The translations under genes and the position numbers were made by a program. A DNA stretch of 12,319 nucleotides from Deltaproteobacteria bacterium (lineage in GTDB: Bacteria > Desulfobacterota > Syntrophia > Syntrophales > UBA5619), in NCBI GenBank assembly GCA_026388345.1, contig JAPLJY010000087.1:1-12319 (forward strand). Reading direction: 5' to 3'. Position 1 is the stretch's first letter, and every line of letters starts with the position of its first letter. Shown here in pieces: positions 1,282 to 12,319 of the stretch. The notes beneath the pieces were generated by a model. It saw only the letters and a program-made list of their open reading frames with translations, was not told the DNA's origin and ran no database searches.

Positions 1282-3168
1282 TCAGCCCCCCCTTCGGGCG
1301 GCGGCCTTCCACTCCCGCTTCTTGATCACGATGAGAATCGCCGTGAGGGCGGCCTGCGTCATTCCGGGGATCCGCTCCGCCTGGCCGACGGTCGCCGGAC
1401 CCACGCGGGCGAGCTTCGCCTTGAGTTCGCTGGAGAGGCCGGGCACGGCGGTGTAATCGAAGTCCGCCGGAATCTTCATCCCTTCGAGTTCCTTCATCTT
1501 CCGGACCGCCTCCTCCTGCCGCCGGATGTACCCCTCGTACTTCGCCTCGATCTCGATCTGCCTCTTGACCGCGCGGTCGCAAACGGCCTCCCAGCCGTCA
1601 AAACGGGCAAGGTCGTCGTATCCGATCTCCTCGCGCTTGAGGAGTTGGAAGAGGGTGATCGGGTTTTTGATCGGCGCCGTATTCATCTCCGCGAGGGTTC
1701 TGTTGGTTTCTTCCACCGGAAAGATCCGGACGGAGGAGAGATTTCGGATGCCCGCCTCGATCCGGCGGACCTTTTCCCGGAGAAGCCCGTGCTGCTCCTC
1801 CGTGATCAGCCCCAGCTCGCGCCCCTTCCCCATCAGGCGGATCGTGGCGTTGTCCTCCCGGAGGATCAGCCGGTACTCGGCGCGGGAGGTGAACATCCGG
1901 TAGGGCTCGTCGACCCCCCTGGTCACGAGGTCGTCCGCCATCACGCCCATGTAGGCCTCCGACCGGTCCAATACGAAGGGGGGGCGCCCCTGCACGCTTA
2001 GCGCGGCGTTGACCCCCGCCCAGAGCCCCTGTGCCGCCGCCTCCTCGTAGCCCGAGGTCCCGTTGATCTGACCGGCGAGGTAGAGGCCGGAAATTTGCTT
2101 CGTCTCCAGCGTGAGGCGGAGCTGGGTCGGCTGGACGAAGTCGTATTCGATGGCATAGGCAAGGCGCATGATCTCTGCCTGCTCCAGACCCGGCACGCTC
2201 CGGACGACCCTTTCCTGGAGATCCGGCGGGAGGCAGTTGCCGAGCCCTTTTGCGTAGATTTCCTCCGTGTCGAGCCCTTCCCGTTCGAGGACAACCGGGT
2301 GGCTCCCCCGGTCGGCAAACCGCATCACCTTGTCCTCGAGGGAGGGGCAGTAGCGGGCGCCGACCCCCTGGATCGCCCCGGCATACAGGGGTGAAAAGCG
2401 GATGTTTTCGCGGATGATCCGGTGGGTCTCCTCCGTTGTTGCCGTGAAAAAGGAAGGGAGGCGATCCTCGCGGAGCCGCTCCGTCGTGAAGGAGAAGGGT
2501 TCCGGATCGGGATCGCTGTCCTGGCGGACAAGGCGGGAAAAATCGATCGTGGAGGCGCGAAGCCTCGGGGGCGTCCCCGTCTTCATCCGCCCCATCTCGA
2601 AACCGAGAAACTTGAGGGAGGAGGCGAGCTCCAGGGAGGCCATCTCCCCGGCCCGGCCCGCGGGATACCGGACATCGCCGATGTGGATAAGGCCGCCGAG
2701 GAAGGTCCCCGTCGTGATGACGACCGCCCGGCCGCCGTGAAAAACACCCGTCTGATCGACGACGCCGCGGATCCGTCCATCCTCGACGACGAGACGTTCC
2801 ACGAGGCCCTGAAGAAGATGAAGGCGCGGCTCCTTCTCCACGACGGACTTCATGGCGAGGCGGTAAAGCTGCTTGTCGCACTGGAAGCGGGTGGACTGGA
2901 CGGCCGGGCCTTTGGAGGCGTTCAGCAGGCGGAAGTGGACGGCGGTTTGGTCGGCGATCCGGCCCATCTGACCGCCCAGCGCGTCGACCTCCTTGACGAG
3001 CTGGCTCTTGGCGAGGCCGCCGATTGCGGGGTTGCAGGACATGAGGGCGATCGCATCAAGGCTGATGTTGAACAGCAGCGTCTCGCAGCCCATCCTCGCC
3101 GCCGCGAGGGCCGCCTCGCAGCCCGCGTGCCCTCCCCCGACCACAATGACGTCATATTCCCGGCTCAT
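1282..3168 (-). CDS. mnmG: MnmG (GidA), tRNA uridine-5-carboxymethylaminomethyl(34) synthesis enzyme
   Basis: With MnmE, MnmG installs the carboxymethylaminomethyl group on wobble U34 of certain tRNAs, using FAD, NADH and a methylene-tetrahydrofolate carbon. The 628 residues match the usual length (about 630). Visible: the FAD-binding glycine loop GGGHAG at 11-16, the family signature with a conserved cysteine in MSCNPAIGGLAKS (C45), TGTFLGGLIHIGD near 153-165, MKTGTPPRL near 196, GYEEAAAQGLWAG near 374, SRAEYRL in the 430s, and the C-terminal MnmE/tRNA-binding helical region ending in VIKKREWKAAARRGG. The start at 3168 is preceded on the minus strand by AGGGAA at short spacing. It stands alone here, without mnmE, rsmG or parAB, and is divergent from the radical SAM gene. 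Function is as certain as homology allows. Confidence 0.98.
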   Translation of the reverse strand: MSREYDVIVVGGGHAGCEAALAAARMGCETLLFNISLDAIALMSCNPAIGGLAKSQLVKEVDALGGQMGRIADQTAVHFRLLNASKGPAVQSTRFQCDKQLYRLAMKSVVEKEPRLHLLQGLVERLVVEDGRIRGVVDQTGVFHGGRAVVITTGTFLGGLIHIGDVRYPAGRAGEMASLELASSLKFLGFEMGRMKTGTPPRLRASTIDFSRLVRQDSDPDPEPFSFTTERLREDRLPSFFTATTEETHRIIRENIRFSPLYAGAIQGVGARYCPSLEDKVMRFADRGSHPVVLEREGLDTEEIYAKGLGNCLPPDLQERVVRSVPGLEQAEIMRLAYAIEYDFVQPTQLRLTLETKQISGLYLAGQINGTSGYEEAAAQGLWAGVNAALSVQGRPPFVLDRSEAYMGVMADDLVTRGVDEPYRMFTSRAEYRLILREDNATIRLMGKGRELGLITEEQHGLLREKVRRIEAGIRNLSSVRIFPVEETNRTLAEMNTAPIKNPITLFQLLKREEIGYDDLARFDGWEAVCDRAVKRQIEIEAKYEGYIRRQEEAVRKMKELEGMKIPADFDYTAVPGLSSELKAKLARVGPATVGQAERIPGMTQAALTAILIVIKKREWKAAARRGG

Positions 3169-3247: not shown

Positions 3248-4192
3248 GTGGCCAAACCGACCTTCTGGAACAACGCGAAGCGATACTACGATCTCAAGAG
3301 TTACTGGCTCAACCGCTTCGGCTGCCGGGTGCACAAGCTCCCGATCGACGCCGGCTTCACCTGTCCGAACCGTGACGGAAGCGTCGCGGCGGGGGGGTGC
3401 GTCTACTGCGACGGGCGGGGATCGGCGCTCCGCCAGGCAGGCCCGCTCCCCCCGGTCGGCGACCAGGTCCGCCGGGGAAAGGCCTTCTACCGCAAGCGCG
3501 GCAAGGCGGAGAAATTCATCGCCTATTTCCAGACCTTCACGAACACCTACGCCTCGGTGGAAAACCTGCGGGCGCTCTACGACGAGGCGCTCGCTGTAGA
3601 GGACGTGATCGGTCTTTCCATCGGGACACGGCCGGACTGCGTCCCCGATGAGACGCTTGCGCTGATTCGATCCTACGCCGAGCGGTCTCACGTCTGGCTG
3701 GAGTTCGGCCTCCAGTCGATCCACGACCGGACGCTCGGGGCGATCAACCGGGGCCACGACGCGGCAACCTTCCGCGACGCCGTCCGTCGCGCCGGGGGCG
3801 GGTCCATCCTGATCTGCGTCCACATCATCGTGGGGCTTCCCGGCGAGACCCGCGAGAAGATCCTGGAGACGGCCAAGGCGATCGCCGCGCTGCCGGTTCA
3901 GGGAATCAAGATTCACAGTCTCCTCGCCCTGGAGGGGACGGCGCTCGGCGAGAGTTTCAAGCGGGGAGAGGTCACATTGATGACCCGGGAGGAGTACGTC
4001 GGCGCCGTCTGCGACATATTGGAGATCCTGCCGCCGGGGATGGTCATCCAGCGGCTGACCGCGGATGGCTACCGGGACATCTTTCTGGGCCCGGCCTGGG
4101 CGGGAAACAAGCTCGCCGTCCTTAACGCGATCGACCGGGAGCTGGAAGCGCGCGACAGTTGGCAGGGGAAGATGTGGGGAGGAGCGGTATGA
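3248..4192 (+). CDS. TIGR01212 (YhcC-type) radical SAM protein
   Basis: The 314 residues match E. coli YhcC in length and layout. Radical SAM enzymes use a [4Fe-4S] cluster to cleave S-adenosylmethionine; this family has no agreed substrate. The cluster motif is the YhcC variant C-x11-C-x2-C: C39 in DAGFTCPNRDG, then C51 and C54 in GGCVYC. Further family marks are FQTFTNTYA near 94-102, GLSIGTRPDC near 122-131, WLEFGLQSIHD near 150-160 and IIVGLPGET near 195-203. The start is GTG at 3248 with an AAAGGA-type ribosome site just before it. The stop overlaps the start of a truncated hisH in an ATGA (4189-4192), pointing to an ancestral, translationally coupled radicalSAM-hisH operon. A second, broken copy of its last ~60 bases lies at about 4674-4737. 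Confidence 0.92.
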   Translation: MAKPTFWNNAKRYYDLKSYWLNRFGCRVHKLPIDAGFTCPNRDGSVAAGGCVYCDGRGSALRQAGPLPPVGDQVRRGKAFYRKRGKAEKFIAYFQTFTNTYASVENLRALYDEALAVEDVIGLSIGTRPDCVPDETLALIRSYAERSHVWLEFGLQSIHDRTLGAINRGHDAATFRDAVRRAGGGSILICVHIIVGLPGETREKILETAKAIAALPVQGIKIHSLLALEGTALGESFKRGEVTLMTREEYVGAVCDILEILPPGMVIQRLTADGYRDIFLGPAWAGNKLAVLNAIDRELEARDSWQGKMWGGAV

Positions 4193-4250
4193 TCGGGATC
4201 GTCGACTACCGAGCGGGAAATCCGACCGGCGTCGCAGGACCGGCGGACAC
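4124..4250 (+). repeat. Direct repeat, copy 1: radical SAM 3' end plus hisH 5' end
   Basis: This stretch holds the last ~65 bases of the radical SAM gene and the first ~60 of a hisH. It reappears about 550 bases downstream (about 4674-4799). The hisH parts align without gaps at offset 549, and the upstream parts at offset 550 (one base missing in copy 2). Across the first 48 bases of hisH I count 6 differences (about 87.5% identity). The outer edges are approximate because similarity fades gradually. Confidence 0.8.
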
Positions 4251-4299
4251 CGTGAATCATATCCTTATGGCAAAGTCAGCGGGGTTCTGTTATAAGTAG
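4189..4299 (+). pseudogene. hisH: Truncated hisH remnant (N-terminal codons only)
   Basis: The frame from ATG 4189 to TAG 4297-4299 gives 36 residues beginning [11 protein letters not shown], identical over 11 residues to the start of the intact HisH at 4738. The similarity then decays (PTGVAGPAD against LTSVARALD), and the last ~15 residues are unrelated to HisH. Everything needed for glutaminase function (catalytic Cys, His and Glu) is missing. The ATGA overlap with the radical SAM stop is the normal arrangement of coupled genes, so this is probably the original position of hisH in this operon, later cut off by inserted sequence. A short translated product is possible but would have no HisH activity. 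Confidence 0.85.
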
Positions 4300-4316
4300 G
4301 CGAGAATTCAACAAAT

Positions 4317-4343
4317 AGGGACCCTGTGGAAAAGCCTGTCCCT
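4317..4343. repeat. Short inverted repeat AGGGAC / GTCCCT
   Basis: Perfect 6-base arms (4317-4322 and 4338-4343) surround a 15-base spacer, just before the ribosome site of the small ORF at 4361. It could be a relic operator of the lost export operon or chance. There is no T-run, so it is not a convincing terminator. Confidence 0.3.
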
Positions 4344-4360
4344 GTTCTGGAGAGCCGGTC

Positions 4361-4561
4361 ATGCCTGCGGAAGACATTGCAAAGCTGAAGATTGAAAAAT
4401 CGGAGAAGATCATCAAGCCCGGCCGGCGCAGAAAGAAGCCGTTTGTCATCGCGGCCGTCGTCCTGCTCATTCTGACCGCCGGCGGCCTTTACTTCGGCGG
4501 CATGCTGCCCGCGTTGCGCGCCTCCCGGATGAAGATCGTCGACGCCCTGCGGGCTACATAG
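4361..4561 (+). pseudogene. Deletion remnant: membrane-fusion-protein N-terminus joined to ABC permease C-terminus
   Basis: This 66-codon ORF has a good ribosome site (GGAGAG, 4349-4354). Residues 1-32 (MPAEDIAKLKIEKSEKI followed by a basic RRRKK stretch) and the hydrophobic segment FVIAAVVLLILTAGGLYFGG (about 33-52) resemble the cytoplasmic tail and single membrane anchor of HlyD/MacA-type periplasmic adaptors. The last 17 residues (MLPALRASRMKIVDALRAT) resemble the conserved end of FtsX/MacB-type ABC permeases (PAxRASRxxxxxALR). In intact export operons these belong to two genes separated by an ATPase gene. I infer one in-frame deletion fused the ends and removed the rest. It could still be made as a small single-span membrane protein. 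The family calls come from remembered consensus, not from a search. Confidence 0.6.
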
Positions 4562-4673
4562 CGTATGCAGGTCGCCCCTTGCTCCCGCTTGCAGTTGCGG
4601 CCGTCTCAGGATATAGTCCTCCTGCCGCCGCCGAGCAGATGCTTTGAGCGGCATCCCAGGGCGAAGATGATCC

Positions 4674-4799
4674 GGCGCCATCGTCCGGGAGCTGGAACAC
4701 GCGACAATTGGCAGGGAAAGAAATTTGGGAGAGAATCATGATCGGCATCGTGGACTACCGGGCGGGAAATCTGACCAGCGTCGCGCGGGCGCTGGACAA
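4674..4799 (+). repeat. Direct repeat, copy 2: broken radical SAM 3' end leading into intact hisH
   Basis: About 64 bases before hisH resemble the end of the radical SAM gene (ccgggagctggaa then gcgacaattggcaggg), but a one-base deletion near 4697 and the missing upstream portion leave no usable frame. The repeat continues into the first ~60 bases of the intact hisH. The stretch between the small ORF and this repeat (4562-4673) shows no gene, RNA or terminator that I can recognise. Confidence 0.75.
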
Positions 4800-5382
4800 C
4801 CTGCATGAACCGTGCATCATTACCCATGATTCCAAATTATTGGATGACATGAGCCATATCATCTTTCCCGGCGTCGGCGCCGCCGGACAGGCGATGGCGA
4901 ACCTCCGGGAAAGCGGCCTAGACGAGCATCTGAAAAGATGGGTACGGGAGGGCAAGCCCGTTCTCGGGATCTGTCTCGGCACCCAGGTGATCTTCGACCG
5001 GAGCGAAGAGGACGACACCCCCTGCCTCGGCATCGTCCCGGGAGAGGTCAAACGGTTTCCGGCGGATCTCAGCGAGGGGGGGCAAAGGCTCAAGATTCCG
5101 CACATGGGTTGGAACCGCGTATCATTCAGGGAGGGCCGGGAGGGCCATCCGGTCTTTGCCGGGATCCCCGCGGAGGCCGAGTTCTATTTTGTCCACTCCT
5201 ACTACCCGGCCCCGGCGGACGCGGCCTGGGCCGCAGGCTGGACGGATTACGGCATCCGCTTCTGTTCCGCCGTGGCCCGGGGAAACCTCGTTGCGGTCCA
5301 GTTCCACCCGGAGAAGAGCGGCCGGCCGGGGCTCACCCTGCTGGCAAATTTCTGCCGCTGGGGAGGAAACCATGCTCAGTAA
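4738..5382 (+). CDS. hisH: HisH, glutaminase subunit of imidazole glycerol phosphate synthase
   Basis: HisH hydrolyses glutamine and channels ammonia to HisF at the fifth step of histidine synthesis. The 214 residues are near the usual ~200. The class I amidotransferase triad is complete: C79 in VLGICLGTQ, then H190 and E192 in [16 protein letters not shown] (44-48) forms the oxyanion region, and MGWNRV and FVHSYY are family motifs. The start is ATG 4738, where the protein aligns with other HisH N-termini ([11 protein letters not shown]) and GGGAGAG lies just upstream; an in-frame ATG at 4708 would add a 10-residue extension that derives from the broken radical SAM copy. It overlaps hisF by 11 bases, so the two are translationally coupled. 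A truncated paralogous start lies at 4189. Confidence 0.97.
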
Positions 5383-6151
5383 ACGGATCATCCCCTGTCT
5401 AGATGTCCGGGACGGCCGCCTGACAAAAGGGATAAGATTCAAGGAAAACGTAGATATCGGCGATCCGGTGGAGGCCGCACGAGAATATTACGAACAGGGG
5501 GCCGACGAAATCGTCTTCTACGACATCACGGCCTCCGCCGAGGGCCGCACGATCATGCTCGATGTCGTAAAAAGGGTTGCCGAAACGATCTTCATTCCTT
5601 TTTCCGTAGGGGGCGGCATCGGGACGGTGGAGGAGATGCGGCGGGTGATCCTCGCCGGGGCGGAAAAGATCAGCGTCAATTCAGAGGCGGTGAAAAATCA
5701 CGGCATCATCGCGGAGGGGGCGAGGGCCTTTGGCAGCCAGTGCATCGTCCTCGGCATGGACGTGAAAAAAGTGCCTGCAAGCAATGAGATTCCTTCCGGA
5801 TATGAGATGGTCATCCACGGCGGACGGACCGTAACCGGCCTCGACGCCCTCCGGTGGGCAAAGGAGGCGGAACGTCTCGGCGCGGGGGAGATCTGCCTCA
5901 ACTCCATCGACGCCGACGGGACTTTAGACGGCTACGAACTCGACCTAACCGCGCTGATCTCAAGTCATGTAGGCATCCCGGTGATCGCCTCCGGCGGTGC
6001 GGGAAAGCCGGAGCATCTCCTCGATGTCCTCACCCGGGGAAAGGCCGACGCCGCCCTGATTGCCTCGATGGTCCACTACCGGACACACACCATCCCGGAG
6101 ATCAAGAACTTTCTCCATGACCACGGCGTGAAGACAAGGCTGCAGTGGTAG
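5372..6151 (+). CDS. hisF: HisF, cyclase subunit of imidazole glycerol phosphate synthase
   Basis: HisF joins ammonia from HisH to PRFAR, giving imidazole glycerol phosphate and AICAR. The 259 residues match the usual length (about 255). The catalytic pair is present: D11 in [10 protein letters not shown] and D130 in VLGMDVKK. Phosphate-binding loops are visible in FSVGGGIGT (78-85) and [12 protein letters not shown] (205-216). The segment [16 protein letters not shown] differs from the commoner NLRDAGDPVE form but retains the fold. A specialised amidotransfer HisF, as in surface-sugar pathways, is a minor alternative because no other his genes are visible. The C-terminus ends [12 protein letters not shown]. 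The 3' 50 bases overlap a convergent receiver gene, and codons 140-251 are duplicated at 11831-12169. Confidence 0.96.
5788..6126 (+). repeat. 339-bp direct repeat, copy 1 (3' part of intact hisF)
   Basis: Aligned without gaps to 11831-12169 (offset 6043), I count 23 mismatches in 339 positions (about 93%). The mismatches are unevenly spread: 5813-5946 (134 bases) is identical, while 5947-6126 has 21 mismatches in 180 (about 88%). Sixteen mismatches are synonymous; the other seven change four residues (I to A, A to T, P to A, N to S). The copies diverge completely outside these limits. Confidence 0.95.
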
Positions 6152-6737
6152 GAGAAGTGCCGTTGCCAACGCCTTCCGTATCTTCTTTCGTCTTTGACTT
6201 ATCCTTATCCAGCAGCCATCGAATTTGGGATTGTTTCAAAATCTCCCGGCACAGGGTATCGGCCTTCCTCGCCCGTTCGGGTTCCTTCTTTGCGTAATAA
6301 CCCAGGATCTTTGCCCCTATTTCCTGGAGCGAAAAGGGTTTGATGATGTAGCCCTCAACACCCAGCGTCATGCAGGACAGGACATCCTCACGGCCGGACA
6401 GCGACGTTGCCATCACGATGGTTGTCTTCTTGTCTTCGATGTTTGTCCGAATCGCTTTCAATATCTGGTACCCGGTCATTTCCGGCAGATATATGTCAAG
6501 TATAATGATATCGGGATGCCATTCTTCATAGACGAGAAGCGCTTCTTTCCCCGAAGCAACCAATTTTTTGTCGAATATTTGATTGAATAGTCCCTTGTCA
6601 TATAGCAACTGGGTGGTATGGTCATCCTCAACAACCAGTATCTTGATCTTATCCGTACCACTCGGTGAGCACTGTGGCTCAAGCAGACAATTCACTTCGT
6701 CTTTTGACAACATGCGGGTTCCATCGTCAGCAGCCAT
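6102..6737 (-). CDS. Stand-alone response regulator (receiver domain) with a FliM-like N-terminal peptide
   Basis: This is a 211-residue protein. A CheY-like receiver occupies about 31-150: acidic pair in VVEDD, phospho-acceptor D81 in [13 protein letters not shown], switch residue in MATSLSG (about 109-115) and K133 in YIIKPFS. No DNA-binding or enzymatic domain follows; the C-terminal ~60 residues are charged and polar. The N-terminal ~30 residues contain [11 protein letters not shown] (10-20), which resembles the CheY-binding peptide at the start of flagellar FliM. GGAGG lies 11 bases before ATG 6737; an internal ATG at 6713 would start the protein at MLSKDE. The last ~16 codons lie antisense to the end of hisF, so the tail may be sequence captured at a junction. 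It lies downstream of the kinase and second receiver, after a 154-base gap containing a possible promoter. Confidence 0.88.
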
Positions 6738-6814
6738 GGATTACTGCACCTCCATTATCATAATTAGAATCGGGCACTTCGTAAGCACTGACGGTCTCCG
6801 CGCCCTGCCGCCGT

Positions 6815-6843
6815 AATGTACAAAGTTCGGGAAATCTTGGCAA
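6815..6843 (-). promoter_or_regulatory. Possible sigma70 promoter for the stand-alone response regulator
   Basis: On the minus strand TTGCCA (6843-6838; 5 of 6 to consensus) is followed after exactly 17 bases by TACATT (6820-6815; 4 of 6). It lies in the 154-base gap between the two receiver genes, about 80 bases before ATG 6737. The gap and this element suggest the last gene can be expressed apart from the kinase. No terminator-like hairpin with a T-run is seen in the gap. Confidence 0.4.
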
Positions 6844-6891
6844 GTGGAATTCATCATGCTGCCTGTTGCTTGTGTTGGTTCATGACTCCAA

Positions 6892-7521
6892 TCATGATTT
6901 GCCTTCTGTCTTCTCCCCCACAAATTCGGGATACAATTCCTTCATGCACTCCGGGCAGATGCCGTGGCTGAACTCGGCTTCGGTGTGGTCGCGGACATAG
7001 ACTTCCACCTGGTTCCAGTAGCCCTGGTCGTCACGGATCTTTTTGCAGTTCGCGCAGATGGGCACGATTCCGCGCAGGGTCTTGATCTGATCGAACGCCT
7101 GGCGCAGCTCCTCGACCTTGGCGGCCAGCGCGTCCTGCATCTCGACCAGGCGCCGGCCGACCTCGATCCGGGCGCGGAGTTCACCGGGATCGAAGGGTTT
7201 GGCCAGGTAGTCGTTGGCTCCAGCCTCGAGCCCGGCGATGATGTCGGCCTTATCCCCTTTGGTGGTCAGCATGATGATATAGGGCGGCCGGTCGGTTTGC
7301 AGGGCGCGGACCCGGCGTATCACCTCCGGACCGTCTATTTCCGGCATCATCCAGTCGAGAATGGCCAGCTTGGGGGAGTCGGGCTGTTGCAGCGCCTGCC
7401 AGGCTTCTGTGCCGTTGACCATGGCCATCACCTCGTGGCCCTGCTTTTTCAGCACCGCCGTCAGGACGGTGCGCGACGTAAAATCATCTTCGGCGATCAG
7501 GATTCTCATGGGCATCTCCAT
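6892..7521 (-). CDS. Response regulator with C-terminal CxxC/CxxC (zinc-ribbon-like) domain
   Basis: This is a 209-residue protein. The receiver spans about 5-125: EDD at 11-13, phospho-acceptor D56 in AILDWMMPEIDG, T85/T86 in IMLTTKG and K108 in DYLAKPFD. A short coiled coil (about 125-149, ALAAKVEELRQAFDQIKTL) leads to a compact domain: PICANCKKIRDDQGYW (C156, C159), then FSHGICPECM (C189, C192). Four cysteines in two CxxC pairs suggest one bound metal. This tail recurs on receivers and sensor proteins of environmental bacteria and has no established function that I know of. Starts at 7521 and 7509 are both possible; the latter (MRILIAEDD) has GGAG 6 bases upstream. The gene begins 16 bases after the kinase stop, so the two are almost certainly co-transcribed. 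It probably receives phosphate from the kinase HPt domain. Confidence 0.93.
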   Translation of the reverse strand: MEMPMRILIAEDDFTSRTVLTAVLKKQGHEVMAMVNGTEAWQALQQPDSPKLAILDWMMPEIDGPEVIRRVRALQTDRPPYIIMLTTKGDKADIIAGLEAGANDYLAKPFDPGELRARIEVGRRLVEMQDALAAKVEELRQAFDQIKTLRGIVPICANCKKIRDDQGYWNQVEVYVRDHTEAEFSHGICPECMKELYPEFVGEKTEGKS

Positions 7522-7537
7522 ATCCGTGTTCTCCGTG

Positions 7538-10500
7538 TCATCCGCGGTTAAAATGCTGCTCCATCGCTAGCTTCAGTCGAACAAACTGCCTCTCCATTTC
7601 GGGGAGGCGGGCCGTGACGAATTCCAGATTACCGGCTTTGGCCGCTTTCTCCATCTCGAAGGCCACTGCGCGCAGGGCCTCGCCGCCAAGATTGGCGGAG
7701 GCGCCTTTGATGGTGTGGGCCCGGCGCTCGGCGCTTGTGGCATCGCCCGCTTCCAGATATCCCCGCAGGGCCTCGATCTGCTTTGGGACATCGTCCAGAA
7801 AAGCCTCGATCACCGTGCTCGCCAGGTCCTCGTCGTCCATCATGCGGGCCATCATGCCCGCCTTGTCGAAAACCGGCGCCTCCGGTTCCTGAGTGGAAAC
7901 GGGGGAAGTTTCTTCGGGCTTACCGGGCGGTTGTTCCTCTGTTGTTGCGGTCTCTCGCGGCAGCCATTTCTCCAGCGCCTCCGACAGCGCATGGGGATCA
8001 ACCGGCTTGGTGACATAGTCACTCATGCCCGCATTCAAGAACTTTTCCCGATCACCCTGCATGGCGTGGGCGGTCATGGCGATAATGGGAATCCGGTGAT
8101 TCCGGACCGCGGATTGGGGATTGCGAATTTGCCTGGTTGCCTCCAGTCCGTCCATCTCGGGCATCTGCACATCCATCAGCACCAGGTCGTAAGGGAGGGT
8201 TTCGAGGGCCTTGACGGCTTCCGCGCCGTTGGCCACGGCGTCCGCGCGGAGGCCCAGCTTCTTCAGGATGCCCACGGCCACCATCTGGTTGGTGATGTTG
8301 TCTTCGGCCAGCAGGATACGAACCGCACCCCGGCGCATCTCGCGGATCGCGTGGCGCGTGACGATGGGGTGCACCGGTTGAGCTGCGGCGGTCCCGGCCA
8401 ACACCGCGGACAGGCAGCCCAACAGCTCCGACTGACGCGCCGGTTTGGTAAGGTAGGCGGCAAACCCGATCTCCTCCATTTTTCTGGCGTCGCCCCGTCG
8501 GCCCAGAGAGGATAAAAGTACCAGACGCGTATCCTTCAGCGTTTCGTCAGCCTTGATGATCCGTGCCAAGACTGCGCCGTCCATGCCGGGCATCTGCATG
8601 TCGAGAATGGCGGTCCGGAATGGGTCGTCCGCGTCGCGGGCACGATAGAGCGCCTGCAGGGCCGTGGGACCGTCCGGAGTCTCTTCCGCCCGCACGCCCC
8701 AGGCTGCAAACTGGGCCATCAGCATCTCGCGGTTGGTGGCGTTGTCGTCCACGATCAGGATATGCACCCCGCGAATGTCGGCGGGCGGCGCGATGTTGTG
8801 TTCCCGCTCCGCCTGTTTGCCAAGGTGCACGGTGAACCAGAACTCCGATCCGTGCCCTTCTTCGCTGATTACGCCGATCTCACCGCCCATCCGCTCTGCA
8901 AGTTCCTTTGAGATGGCCAAGCCCAAGCCGGTGCCACCGTACTGGCGTGTGGTCGAGGCGTCCGCCTGGGTGAACTTCTGAAACAGGATGTCATGCTTCT
9001 CCGCCGGAATGCCGATGCCTGTGTCCTTGATGGAGAAGCGGAGCACGGCATCGGCGTCTGTTTCCGACACCAAGTCGGCCCGCACGGCAATCTCGCCCTG
9101 GTGGGTGAACTTCACGGCGTTGCCCGTCAGGTTGGTGAGAATCTGGCGCAGGCGGCCGGGGTCGCCACAAAGATAGGCCGGGACGTCCGGCGCGGCGGCG
9201 CAGATGAACTCGAGCCCCTTTTCGTGGGCACGCAGGGCCAGTGTGGCGGCGAAGTCGTCCAGCAGGGCGCGCAGGTCAAAGTCCAGCGTCTCCATCTCCA
9301 GTTTGCCCGCCTCGATCTTGGAGAAGTCGAGGATGTCGTTCAGGAGGGTCAGCAGCGATTCGCCGCTGGCCCGCACGATCCCGGCGTATTTGCGCTGCTC
9401 GTCGCTGAGTTCCGTATCCAGCAGCAGGCCGGTCATGCCGATCACCCCGTTCATGGGGGTGCGGATCTCATGGCTCATATTGGCCAGAAACTCGCTCTTG
9501 GCGGCGTTGGCCATCTCGGCCTGTACGGCCATCTCGGCCGCAAGCGCCGTCTGCCTCCCCAGGTGTTCATTCATTTTTTCGGCCTCTTCCTTGGCCTCCT
9601 GCAAATCCCTTTCCACTCTTTTCCGGTCCGTAATATCTCGGATCGACTCGATGGCCCCCACAACCTGTCCTTCCGAATCCCGGAGCGGGGCTGCCTTGCC
9701 CCAAAAGAACGTTTCTTTTTCCTTTAGCATCGGAATATAGGATTCGCCGAAGAGACAATCGCCTTCCCGGCTGATCCCTGTGTATTTTCGTTCATATGCC
9801 TCATCCGGTTGCAAAGCCAGATCCACGAGAATGGGTCTTCTCTCTCCATAGAAAGGAATGGCATGTTCATAATTGCCTTTGCCGATCATCTCCTCCGACG
9901 TAACCCCGACCATCTCCTCCATGGACCGGTTCCAGGCGATTACTCGCCCCTCTTTATCAACCACAAAGGTGGCGTCGGGCAGAAAGTCGATGATGTTGGC
10001 AAGCCGGCGTTCCGATTCCCGAAGGGTTTCCTCGGATTTTTTATGTCCCGTGATGTCTCTGGCCGATGTCAGAACGGCCTTCACCTCACCTTGAAGATCG
10101 AATTCCGGTACGAGCAGCCAATCGATCCAGGCACGATCGGGAAGCATGAACTCGATGCGATGTGGCTTGCCGGTTCCGAAGACCTTGTTGATGGCTTCCT
10201 CACAGGTTTTTACCAGATCATCCGGAAAACCAAGATCTTGATGAGTCTTTCCAATAAAGTCCTCGGGCGGGATGCCTGTCTGCCTGCCGGCGGCGGGGTT
10301 TACGTAAAGGTGCCGGTGGTCACGGTCGAAGCGCATGATCGTATCCGGCGAGTTTTCGGCCAGCGCCCGGAAGGTTTCCTCACGCTCCATCAAGGCATCC
10401 TCTATCTGTTTGAGGACTGTGATATCCCGGACCGTCCCGCTGAAACCAACGATGGCGCCCTGATCATTCCTCACGGGATAAGCGGAAGCGGCCGAATAGA

Positions 10501-11614
10501 CCTTCTTCCCGCTTTTCCTGACAAATCGCCAGTAAAAATCCCCGGAAGGTTTTCCGGTGCGATACACTTCGTTGAAAATCCGAAAGACACGCCGGCTCTC
10601 TTCCTGGTCCATGAAAGCACTGTATTTGAGGCCGGTCAGTTCCGCTTCTTCATAGCCAAGGATTTCCAACAAGGCTGGATTGAAAAAGGTCATCGTGCCC
10701 TGCAAATCGACCTCATAGTAGCCGCTGTCCATGTTTTCTATAATGCTTCTGTATTTTTCCTCGCTCCTGCGGAGTTCGTCCTGTACCTTCTTTTTCTCCG
10801 TCACGTCTCTGGCGATGCCGGTGAAGCCGATCACCGTGCCGCCGCGGATCAGCGGCGTGCCGACAATTTCGGCGATCCGCGGCGATCCGTCTTTGGCGAT
10901 CATCGTATAAGCCGTGGGGCCTACGCTTTCACCGGCAAGAATGGCGTTGATCTCCGCGGCCATCCGGCCAAGCTCGTCCGGTTGAATCAGATTGAGTTCA
11001 AGAATTTTCTTCCCGATCAGATCCTCGGGCTTGTATCCCATTGTGAGCCTGACACTCGGCGAAAAAGACAGCACGGTTAAATCGGGAGATACCGTATAGA
11101 TGACGTCCTGGGAGGCATTGATGAGCAGGCGGTGCTGTTCTTCGCTCTCCCGCAGGGCCTCCTGTGCACGGATACGCTCGGTGACGTCCCGGACGGTGAT
11201 GACGATCCCACGGATCGCCGGCTGATCCATCATGTTGTTCGCCAACGCCTCGAGATAAGCCCATGTGCCGTCCGCTCTACGGAAACGAAACGGCGTGGGG
11301 ATGCCGTCGATGGCGTGTTGCACGGAATCGGTAAAATCCTTCAGAACGGCCGGTAAATCATCGGGGTGAATGAACGGGAAAGGGGACTGGCCGACGAAAT
11401 AGCCTTCCGGGTAACCGAGGGTTCTCGCCCAAGAGGGTGATTCATAGGAAACGAGGCCCCTGTCGTCAATGATCCCGATCATGTCCGTCAGGTTCTGGAT
11501 CAGCGCCCGGAAACGATCCTCGCCTTCCCATAGGGATGCCTTCGATGGCCGTCGTTTGCCCGACGTACTGCGTTTGCCCTTTCCCGATTTTACCGCTTTT
11601 TTTTCTTCGTCCAT
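7538..11614 (-). CDS. Hybrid sensor histidine kinase: 5 PAS, HisKA, HATPase, REC, REC, HPt
   Basis: The protein has 1358 residues. It has no membrane segment or signal peptide; the first 25 residues are basic ([15 protein letters not shown]), so it should be a soluble sensor. Five PAS units occupy about 33-150, 158-275, 285-402, 412-525 and 536-665, each ending in an RD(V/I)T-type linker. A coiled coil (about 665-705) precedes HisKA with H715 in [10 protein letters not shown]. The ATPase has an N box ([13 protein letters not shown], 825-837), DTGIGIP (864-870) and [10 protein letters not shown] (893-902). REC1 has phospho-acceptor D1005 and K1057; REC2 has D1148 and K1203. The HPt has H1300 in HTIKGASAN. 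All relay residues are intact. The start is ATG 11614, with AAAGGGGA 8 bases upstream (11629-11622); the frame stays open to 11950, but that part is promoter and antisense hisF sequence. The signal sensed is unknown. Confidence 0.95.
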
Positions 11615-11621
11615 GAACTTG

Positions 11622-11629
11622 TCCCCTTT
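11622..11629 (-). promoter_or_regulatory. Ribosome binding site fixing the kinase start
   Basis: AAAGGGGA on the minus strand ends 7 bases before ATG 11614. This decides the start against the upstream in-frame ATG at 11950, whose codons would run through the promoter and the antisense of the hisF remnant. Confidence 0.75.
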
Positions 11630-11749
11630 TACCTGTTTGCCCTGGCGTGAAAACGGCAGGAATGCCAAGAGGTGCGACTTGAAAATTATTAAAAAAGATA
11701 CTTCGAAGAACATCAAGTGGATTGATAAGGCATTCTTTTTTATGGCGGG

Positions 11750-11778
11750 AGTATATGAAGAAGGATCTTGTGTGTCAA
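11750..11778 (-). promoter_or_regulatory. Near-consensus sigma70 promoter of the histidine kinase operon
   Basis: On the minus strand TTGACA (11778-11773) is a perfect -35 and, after exactly 17 bases, TATACT (11755-11750) matches 5 of 6 positions of the -10. Transcription should start near 11743, giving a leader of roughly 130 bases before ATG 11614. The leader has only a small GGCA-ttcc-TGCC stem near 11666-11677 and no recognisable riboswitch. The promoter lies wholly within the non-repeated segment next to the hisF remnant. Confidence 0.8.
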
Positions 11779-11788
11779 TAGGATTTTG

Positions 11789-11805
11789 ACCACAAAATAA
11801 GTGGT
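11789..11805. promoter_or_regulatory. Inverted repeat ACCAC-N7-GTGGT upstream of the kinase promoter
   Basis: Perfect 5-base arms (11789-11793, 11801-11805) surround an AT-rich 7-base spacer. The element lies about 10 bases upstream of the -35 hexamer, a position where an activator or repressor could act. No regulator with a DNA-binding domain is encoded nearby, and arms this short can occur by chance. Confidence 0.35.
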
Positions 11806-11830
11806 TTACGTTGCCGATCCTTGTGAGAGG

Positions 11831-12169
11831 GATTCCTTCCGGATACGAGATGGTGATCCACGGCGGACGGACCGTAACCGGCCTCGACGCCCTCCGGTGG
11901 GCAAAGGAGGCGGAACGTCTCGGCGCGGGGGAGATCTGCCTCAACTCCATCGACGCCGACGGGACTTTAGACGGCTACGAACTCGACCTGACTGCCCTGG
12001 CATCGAGTCATGTCGGCATCCCGGTGATCGCCTCCGGCGGTGCGGGAAAGCCGGAACACCTCCTTGACGTCCTCACGCGGGGAAAGGCCGATACCGCCCT
12101 GATCGCCTCGATGGTCCACTACCGGACACACACCATCGCCGAGATCAAGAGCTTTCTCCACGACCATGG
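11831..12169 (+). pseudogene. hisF: hisF remnant (3' half of a diverged second copy)
   Basis: The sequence encodes [12 protein letters not shown] through FLHDHG, matching codons 140-251 of the intact HisF with only four residue changes, so it was under selection until recently. The first 139 codons, including catalytic D11 and D130, are absent. The left junction (11830/11831) abuts the kinase upstream region. On the right, homology ends two bases into codon 252; the frame then runs through unrelated bases and stops at TAA 12210-12212 inside the insertion-sequence end. No start codon with a ribosome site is visible (the nearest is a TTG at 11811). It is a non-functional relic, best explained as the downstream end of a his operon split by the intervening DNA. 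Confidence 0.93.
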
Positions 12170-12194
12170 GACCTGCATATATCCCTGTCCCGCC

Positions 12195-12236
12195 AAAATG
12201 AGAATGTCCTAAATCACCAAAGTAGAAATGTCCTAA
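12195..12236 (+). repeat. Two tandem 18-base motifs ending ATGTCCTAA (IS end)
   Basis: The motifs at 12195-12212 and 12219-12236 match at 14 of 18 positions with a 24-base period and share AATGTCCTAA. Their placement between the hisF junction and the transposase start fits transposase-binding sites. Confidence 0.75.
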
Positions 12237-12275
12237 TGTAAGGCTGTAATTTTTCCCTAACGAAGGGGGGTAATT

Positions 12276-12319
12276 ATGGCCGGTAGGGACATTATCGTCA
12301 TGAGTATGCGGGAGGTCAG
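12276..12319 (+). CDS. Transposase, N-terminal fragment (continues beyond window)
   Basis: ATG 12276 follows GAAGGGGGG (12262-12270) by five bases and the frame stays open to the window end: MAGRDIIVMSMREV. An opening like MSMREV, just before a helix-turn-helix, is what I recall for ISNCY-type transposases. Only 14 codons are visible, so the catalytic domain cannot be checked. Confidence 0.6.
   Translation, partial: MAGRDIIVMSMREV

Follow-up and report, generated by a model that had tools for sequence, protein, structure and literature searches.

This analysis concerns the histidine biosynthesis genes hisH and hisF, and the radical SAM gene in front of them, on contig JAPLJY010000087.1 of a Deltaproteobacteria bacterium of the order Syntrophales (assembly GCA_026388345.1); the whole stretch analyzed, 12,319 nucleotides long, is called the window below. 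What is seen there is best accounted for by two independent insertions into a radical SAM-hisH-hisF operon, a reading to which we give a probability of about 70%. The older insertion would have brought an ABC-exporter operon between the radical SAM gene and hisH, and the other one a cluster of a hybrid sensor kinase and two response regulators, which now lies between an intact hisF and a 3' remnant of a second hisF. The locus as a whole is an ordinary genome rearrangement, made up of two overlaid insertions and a deletion, and both hisH and hisF have stayed intact through it. In order, the radical SAM gene is followed by a relic of hisH, an exporter relic, a relic of the radical SAM tail, hisH, hisF, the response regulators RR1 and RR2 and the kinase, a dispersed repeat, the hisF remnant and an insertion-sequence-like end. 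The locus is a worked case in which sister genomes resolve two rearrangements that resemble one event in a single sequence, and its relics (the hisH piece, the exporter fusion and the tail of RR1) reveal the order of the steps.

The proposed older insertion between the radical SAM gene and hisH

The radical SAM gene (3248-4192, plus strand), left neighbor of the his genes, is an intact open reading frame with the Pfam domains Radical_SAM and Radical_SAM_C. Its protein is 92% identical to that of the metagenome-assembled genome (MAG) Syntrophaceae bacterium fen_1170 (L001; genome G001 below), and the next nine matches, at 82 to 87%, come from MAGs labelled Syntrophaceae, Syntrophales, Syntrophobacterales or Deltaproteobacteria; the comparison genomes are incomplete MAGs throughout. 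As the original prediction had described, the gene overlaps a truncated hisH, its stop codon lying across the ATG at 4189. This relic (4189-4254, plus strand) holds the 5' end of hisH, with homology recognizable to about 4247 and a breakpoint at about 4255, and it differs from the intact hisH at 6 of 48 nucleotides (4189-4236). It belongs to a direct repeat of 107 nucleotides with 76% identity (4151-4257 against 4700-4806). A relic of the radical SAM tail stands before the intact hisH (4676-4741, plus strand). The stretch after the hisH relic (4255-4360, plus strand) is the upstream region of an exporter membrane-fusion gene, and it matches loci in G007 (C18), G009 (C442), G002 (C155) and G005 (C33) in which the matched stretch has no hisH relic; in G007 the exporter DNA is homologous from the breakpoint base onward at another locus (C18:12031). 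An open reading frame of 66 codons follows (4361-4561, plus strand), an in-frame fusion at GGCGGCAT of the first 47 codons of the membrane-fusion protein with the last 19 of an ABC permease, and this 8-bp repeat is present at both ends of the exporter operon in G001, 15.9 kb apart.

On a single contig of G001 (C71) the radical SAM gene is followed by the hisH relic (7276-7467), the exporter membrane-fusion gene (from 7576) and other DNA, and then by the permease end (23687-23816), a gene that we take to be oxidoreductase-like, hisH (24937) and hisF (to 26340). In G002, contig C159 carries the radical SAM gene, the hisH relic and 59 bp of the exporter upstream region, while the permease end, the radical SAM tail, hisH and hisF are contiguous on C163. 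In the window, in G001 and in G002 the relic gives way to aatcatatcc, G002 differing by an insertion of about 185 bp. Judged from this comparison, the left duplication is one older event common to the three lineages, since the hisH relic has the same breakpoint in all of them. The insertion within the relic of G002 (L007 11005-11207) has gtgaatcat on either side, the pattern expected of a small mobile element that makes a 9-bp target duplication.

The original prediction had looked to relatives with an uninterrupted operon for comparison, and most relatives examined have the radical SAM gene and hisH close together. Among 30 loci examined, with duplicates merged by contig coordinates, 14 distinct genomes had the radical SAM gene and hisH on one stretch, and the spacing of the two matches was below 400 bp in 12 of these, 2.3 kb at L013 and 17.6 kb in G001; the radical SAM matches of G018 are rearranged. 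The 2.3-kb interruption (L013 10915-13173) is a further case in another relative.

We propose that the exporter operon (membrane-fusion protein, ATPase and two permeases) came between the radical SAM gene and hisH with a flanking duplication of about 107 to 130 bp, which would have left the hisH relic on its left and the radical SAM-tail relic on its right. Judging from G001, the exporter genes would once have been complete in the window lineage, which would later have deleted nearly the whole operon, its ends fusing at the 8-bp repeat and leaving the 66-codon frame as a remnant. A 42-bp piece of the start of the exporter membrane-fusion gene lies 13 bp past hisF in G002 (C163:1947-1988; L143), which hints that a tandem duplication and complementary losses, and not a plain insertion, may underlie the older event.

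The kinase cluster and the two copies of hisF

The intact pair, hisH (4738-5382) and hisF (5372-6151), both on the plus strand, stands complete behind the broken radical SAM tail, as originally described. Both genes are open frames with the Pfam domains GATase and His_biosynth, respectively, the motifs GICLGTQ, QFHPEKS, CLDVRDG and VLGMDVK are all found, with a catalytic meaning that we assume, and HisF is 96% identical in amino acids to that of G001. The outer copy of hisF (11831-12166, plus strand), recognized by a direct repeat, Pfam and alignments, is a 335-bp 3' fragment that starts at codon 139, lacks the last codons and ends at about 12166-12169. Its repeat with the inner copy (5788-6087 against 11831-12130, 300 nucleotides, 94% identity) is direct, like that on the left, and so the direct orientation of the truncated hisF end was correctly read. 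Neither a second hisF piece nor a kinase cluster next to hisF is found in G001 or G002; hisF is followed by another gene in G001, and in G002 by the 42 bp of the exporter start and a presumably regulator-like gene.

The three genes between the hisF copies, all on the minus strand (6102-11614), are RR1 (6102-6737; Pfam), RR2 (6892-7521; open reading frame and Pfam) and a hybrid sensor kinase with PAS repeats, HisKA, HATPase, two receivers and Hpt (7538-11614; open reading frame and Pfam, with the start codon assumed at 11614). The Pfam domain set of a phosphorelay is complete (HisKA, HATPase, receiver and Hpt, with partner receivers), and we presume that the cluster serves as an ordinary phosphorelay, functionally unconnected with histidine synthesis. 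Of the 155 genomes of the order, 9 have an RR1 match at E up to 1e-40, and G001 to G010 are not among these; in the searches with RR1, the outer hisF and the kinase core, the best first-look candidates of each genome were scored, and absence holds at that sensitivity. Identities to relatives are 60-79% in amino acids for RR1, 65-79% for RR2 (G016, G017 and G019) and 70-86% in nucleotides for the kinase core. The nearest known DNA relatives of the cluster would belong to a distant branch of the order: at 86% identity, RR1 and the kinase core match the DNA of G155, whose mnmG is only 72% identical. The cluster looks laterally acquired, directly or via third lineages, because it is closer to G155 (86%) than are mnmG (72%) and the outer hisF (75% to the hisF of G155). 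The G+C content is 48.1% in RR1 and 54.9% in the PAS part of the kinase, compared to 59-66% for mnmG, the radical SAM gene, hisH and hisF. The protein-database entry of RR1, P0001, lies on a contig of 10,274 bases, against 12,319 here.

As DNA, the kinase core (to about 9536) can be aligned with several genomes of the order and the PAS part cannot, the sensor having no DNA alignment with G155, G015 or G016 beyond about 9550. A sensor exchange between related kinases is likely from this pattern. A full-length protein relative of the kinase, P0121 (1357 amino acids), is 83% identical over residues 1-690.

At the left joint, the RR1 DNA is homologous to G155 and G015 from 6156 onward, five bases past the hisF stop, and the last 18 or so residues of RR1 are antisense hisF, a tail seen in none of 11 aligned homologues (the window's own entry excluded). 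By these alignments the cluster joins hisF within 5 bp of its stop, and the original response-regulator tail appears replaced. At the right joint, directly left of the outer hisF, lies a truncated copy of a dispersed genomic repeat (11721-11832), cut after about 112 bp where hisF begins at codon 139; aligned with copies at E up to 1e-6, it shares only GAT with hisF there. Neither joint looks site-specific. Matches to the dispersed repeat number 14 in G001 and 18 in G005, and 16 of the 21 genomes of the family have at least one. As a family (L214, L215, L216, L225 and L227) it reaches up to 18 matches per genome and occurs also in G155; the window copy has no Rfam match. We considered it as a mobile element with defined ends and did not adopt this, as full copies align over about 260-310 bp with terminal repeats and target duplications not established. 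The end of a repeated, insertion-sequence-like element, starting with TGTCCCGCC, begins at 12186, 16 bp right of the outer hisF, and runs off the window (12186-12319, plus strand, 134 bp visible).

The two copies of hisF differ at 22 of 335 positions, and the differences are unevenly spread: 2 of 25, then none in the 134 bp of 5813-5946 (identical to 11856-11989), then 20 of 176, with an abrupt change at 5946/5947. A difference-free run of 134 bp arose in 15 of 100,000 random placements; the mosaic of an identical tract within a diverged rest exceeds chance, and the tract is a candidate exchange or conversion tract. In the unconverted part (5947-6126) 21 of 180 nucleotides differ; this count and that of 6 in 48 in hisH were given exactly by the original prediction, and its view of the hisF tails as diverged alleles is borne out by the copy differences. 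Third codon positions account for 17 of the 22 differences (P 3e-5, with one third expected). Compared with G001, the inner hisF is 93.2% identical both in its 5' part (28 differences in 414) and in its tail (12 in 176); the hisF pieces of G001 and G010 were cut 1-2 bases off, so that the 5' count lacks two G001 columns. The idea that the inner hisF is a foreign copy is not visibly supported by these values, set beside 89.2% for the outer tail. Among ten close relatives, 7 of the 20 tail differences are states seen in the outer copy only (4 of them at codon positions 1-2) and 2 in the inner copy only, and the outer-only states may be decay of the fragment. The hisF of G009 (C398; L149 1-669) is 93.2% identical to the window in its available 5' part (308 bp) and 85.8% in its tail, which falls together with those of G007 and G006; this hisF may be a mosaic in its own right, or the two contigs may come from different strains.

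Proposed route of the second insertion and competing explanations

The cluster would have integrated at hisF by a homology-driven route: a circle may have entered by a single crossover, or homology-facilitated illegitimate recombination may have taken place. The exchange tract would be the 134-bp identical stretch, and the two outer joints would be illegitimate. Of the routes considered, integration through hisF in one of these two ways fits best. If a circle with a 3' hisF piece integrated by a single crossover, the result would be an intact hisF, the insert and a truncated hisF, with divergence on both sides of the exchange tract, and the segment counts of 2/25, 0/134 and 20/176 have this shape. 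The original aside that such a crossover would explain the right half alone survives, as does the statement that no integrase is needed, an integrase domain being found in none of the 10 proteins scanned. The outer tail may descend from the resident, with drift since then, or come from a donor.

Several observations weigh against the account of two insertions. The lateral-transfer contrast comes mainly from G155: G015 is without contrast (RR1 82%, mnmG 82%), as is G016 (core 78%, mnmG 84%), and that of G019 is only slight (core 84%, mnmG 80%). RR2 and the kinase core, at 61.0% and 63.1% G+C, resemble the his genes. The third-position bias of the hisF differences may stem from the functional copy alone, and no same-species genome with an empty site was found. 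Differences from G001 number 19 of 176 in the outer tail (89.2% identity) and only 12 of 176 in the inner tail, which counts against a single crossover because that event makes the outer tail the resident one; this is weak counterevidence, since the seven outer-only states may be decay. A tree of the 177-bp hisF tail, proposed earlier as a comparison of outer and inner pieces, groups inner, outer and G001 at only 70/74 and does not firmly place the outer copy. Eight groupings were given, two of which were already in the best tree, and of the six tested one was rejected at 0.05, namely inner, outer, G001 and G002 as one clade (p-AU 0.012); the short tail thus fails to recover the three lineages that share the exporter insertion.

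A tandem duplication in the window lineage, in which the hisF 3' end and the cluster were duplicated after the cluster had joined hisF and the second cluster was lost, is unlikely in our judgment. The outer hisF piece would then have decayed, conversion keeping 134 bp identical, and the joint of repeat and hisF remnant, sharing only GAT, resembles those of illegitimate duplications; the outer-only states at codon positions 1-2 (4 of 7) and the weak grouping of inner, outer and G001 also speak for it. However, the copy tails differ at 20 of 176 positions, against 12 of 176 between the inner copy and G001, and so the duplication must predate the split of the inner copy from G001, or the outer piece evolved fast; G001 has no second hisF piece.

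Distinctly unlikely, too, is a mis-assembly, in which the order of the right half came from joining paths through the 134-bp identical stretch, whether from two strains or from a circle and a chromosome. Such a stretch is comparable in length to common assembler k-mers, the order comes from the assembly alone, and swapped connections there would yield a 6,043-bp circle and a linear locus. Against this, the joints at about 6152-6156 and at 11830 lie outside the stretch and each needs explaining anyway, and the left half is also present in other assemblies.

We regard as improbable the wider view that gene clusters land repeatedly at the his locus of this family, with partial target duplications, and that the kinase cluster is locked in there. 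If it were true, recombination between the hisF copies would free a 6.0-kb circle, and hisF would lose its native last residues because the tail of the outer copy is foreign; loss of the cluster would then cost histidine synthesis.

That a mobile element integrated site-specifically at the 3' end of hisF, or that a composite transposon did so, is very improbable. One joint does lie within 5 bp of the hisF stop, and an insertion-sequence-like end stands 16 bp right of the outer hisF, but neither an integrase nor a transposase domain was found by Pfam in the ten proteins scanned, the three insert genes included. Short matching att-like repeats at the two ends are missing; the 335-bp hisF copies are all that is repeated there, they are unequal gene pieces, and the joints cut the RR1 tail and the dispersed repeat. 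A composite transposon was rejected since the element end is found only at 12186, where 134 bp are visible, with no such end at the left of the cluster, the left joint being that of the hisF stop and RR1.

Hardly tenable is the original prediction of a single resident allele that has the outer hisH and hisF pieces as its ends and whose middle was replaced by homeologous DNA with its own hisH-hisF and kinase cluster. The pieces have the same orientation and similar distances from the inner copy (6/48 and 21/180), but the left piece occurs with the same breakpoint in G001 and G002, where the right piece and the cluster are missing, and the inner hisF is equally near G001 in both its parts. With separate origins of the two duplications, an outcome that the original prediction had itself named as refuting, the one-allele idea fails. 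Its view that a sensor system was gained while histidine synthesis was kept holds in that the phosphorelay genes look acquired and the his genes are intact; the replacement of the middle as the route does not.

Setting of the locus and likeness to known systems

At the left end of the window an HD-domain gene (305-1273) is followed by mnmG (1282-3168, minus strand) and the radical SAM gene. mnmG is 92% identical to that of G001, where only about 140 other bases lie between the upstream gene and mnmG; the region of the HD-domain gene (248-1290; G+C of the gene 52.0%) marks, by this comparison, another insertion or loss at a distance of 3 kb from the his genes. An Rfam scan of the whole window at E up to 1 matched no family, and no description of this locus appeared in the titles and abstract openings covered by a literature search.

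On the two-insertion reading, a kinase cluster was probably gained laterally next to a biosynthetic gene that remained intact, with no integrase seen. Hybrid kinase-RR2-RR1 clusters with the same gene types adjacent occur elsewhere in the Syntrophales (G016 and G019; partly G155, G015 and G017), but that of the window adjoins hisF and has a replaced RR1 tail. The complete hisF (5372-6151), the insert and the truncated direct copy (11831-12166), together with an identity tract flanked by diverged parts, resemble Campbell-type (single-crossover) insertion-duplication; the locus differs in that no replicon or circle was seen, in that the outer tail does not clearly belong to the resident, and in that the right side meets a repeated element. 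Homology-facilitated illegitimate recombination, in which one end is homologous and the other is without homology, is matched by the joint of repeat and hisF remnant with its shared GAT; this process was measured as rare in Escherichia coli, with a single crossover of circularized DNA as another fate (PMC3240628). The same process was proposed for displaced gene remnants in the immunity-gene arrays of the Vibrio type VI secretion system (PMC5361080). The locus is like these arrays in that new genes adjoin a conserved gene and part of the old gene remains downstream of the insert. It is unlike them in that the remnant here comes from the 3' end of a housekeeping gene and is non-functional, that the copies overlap and that the donor arrangement was not found.

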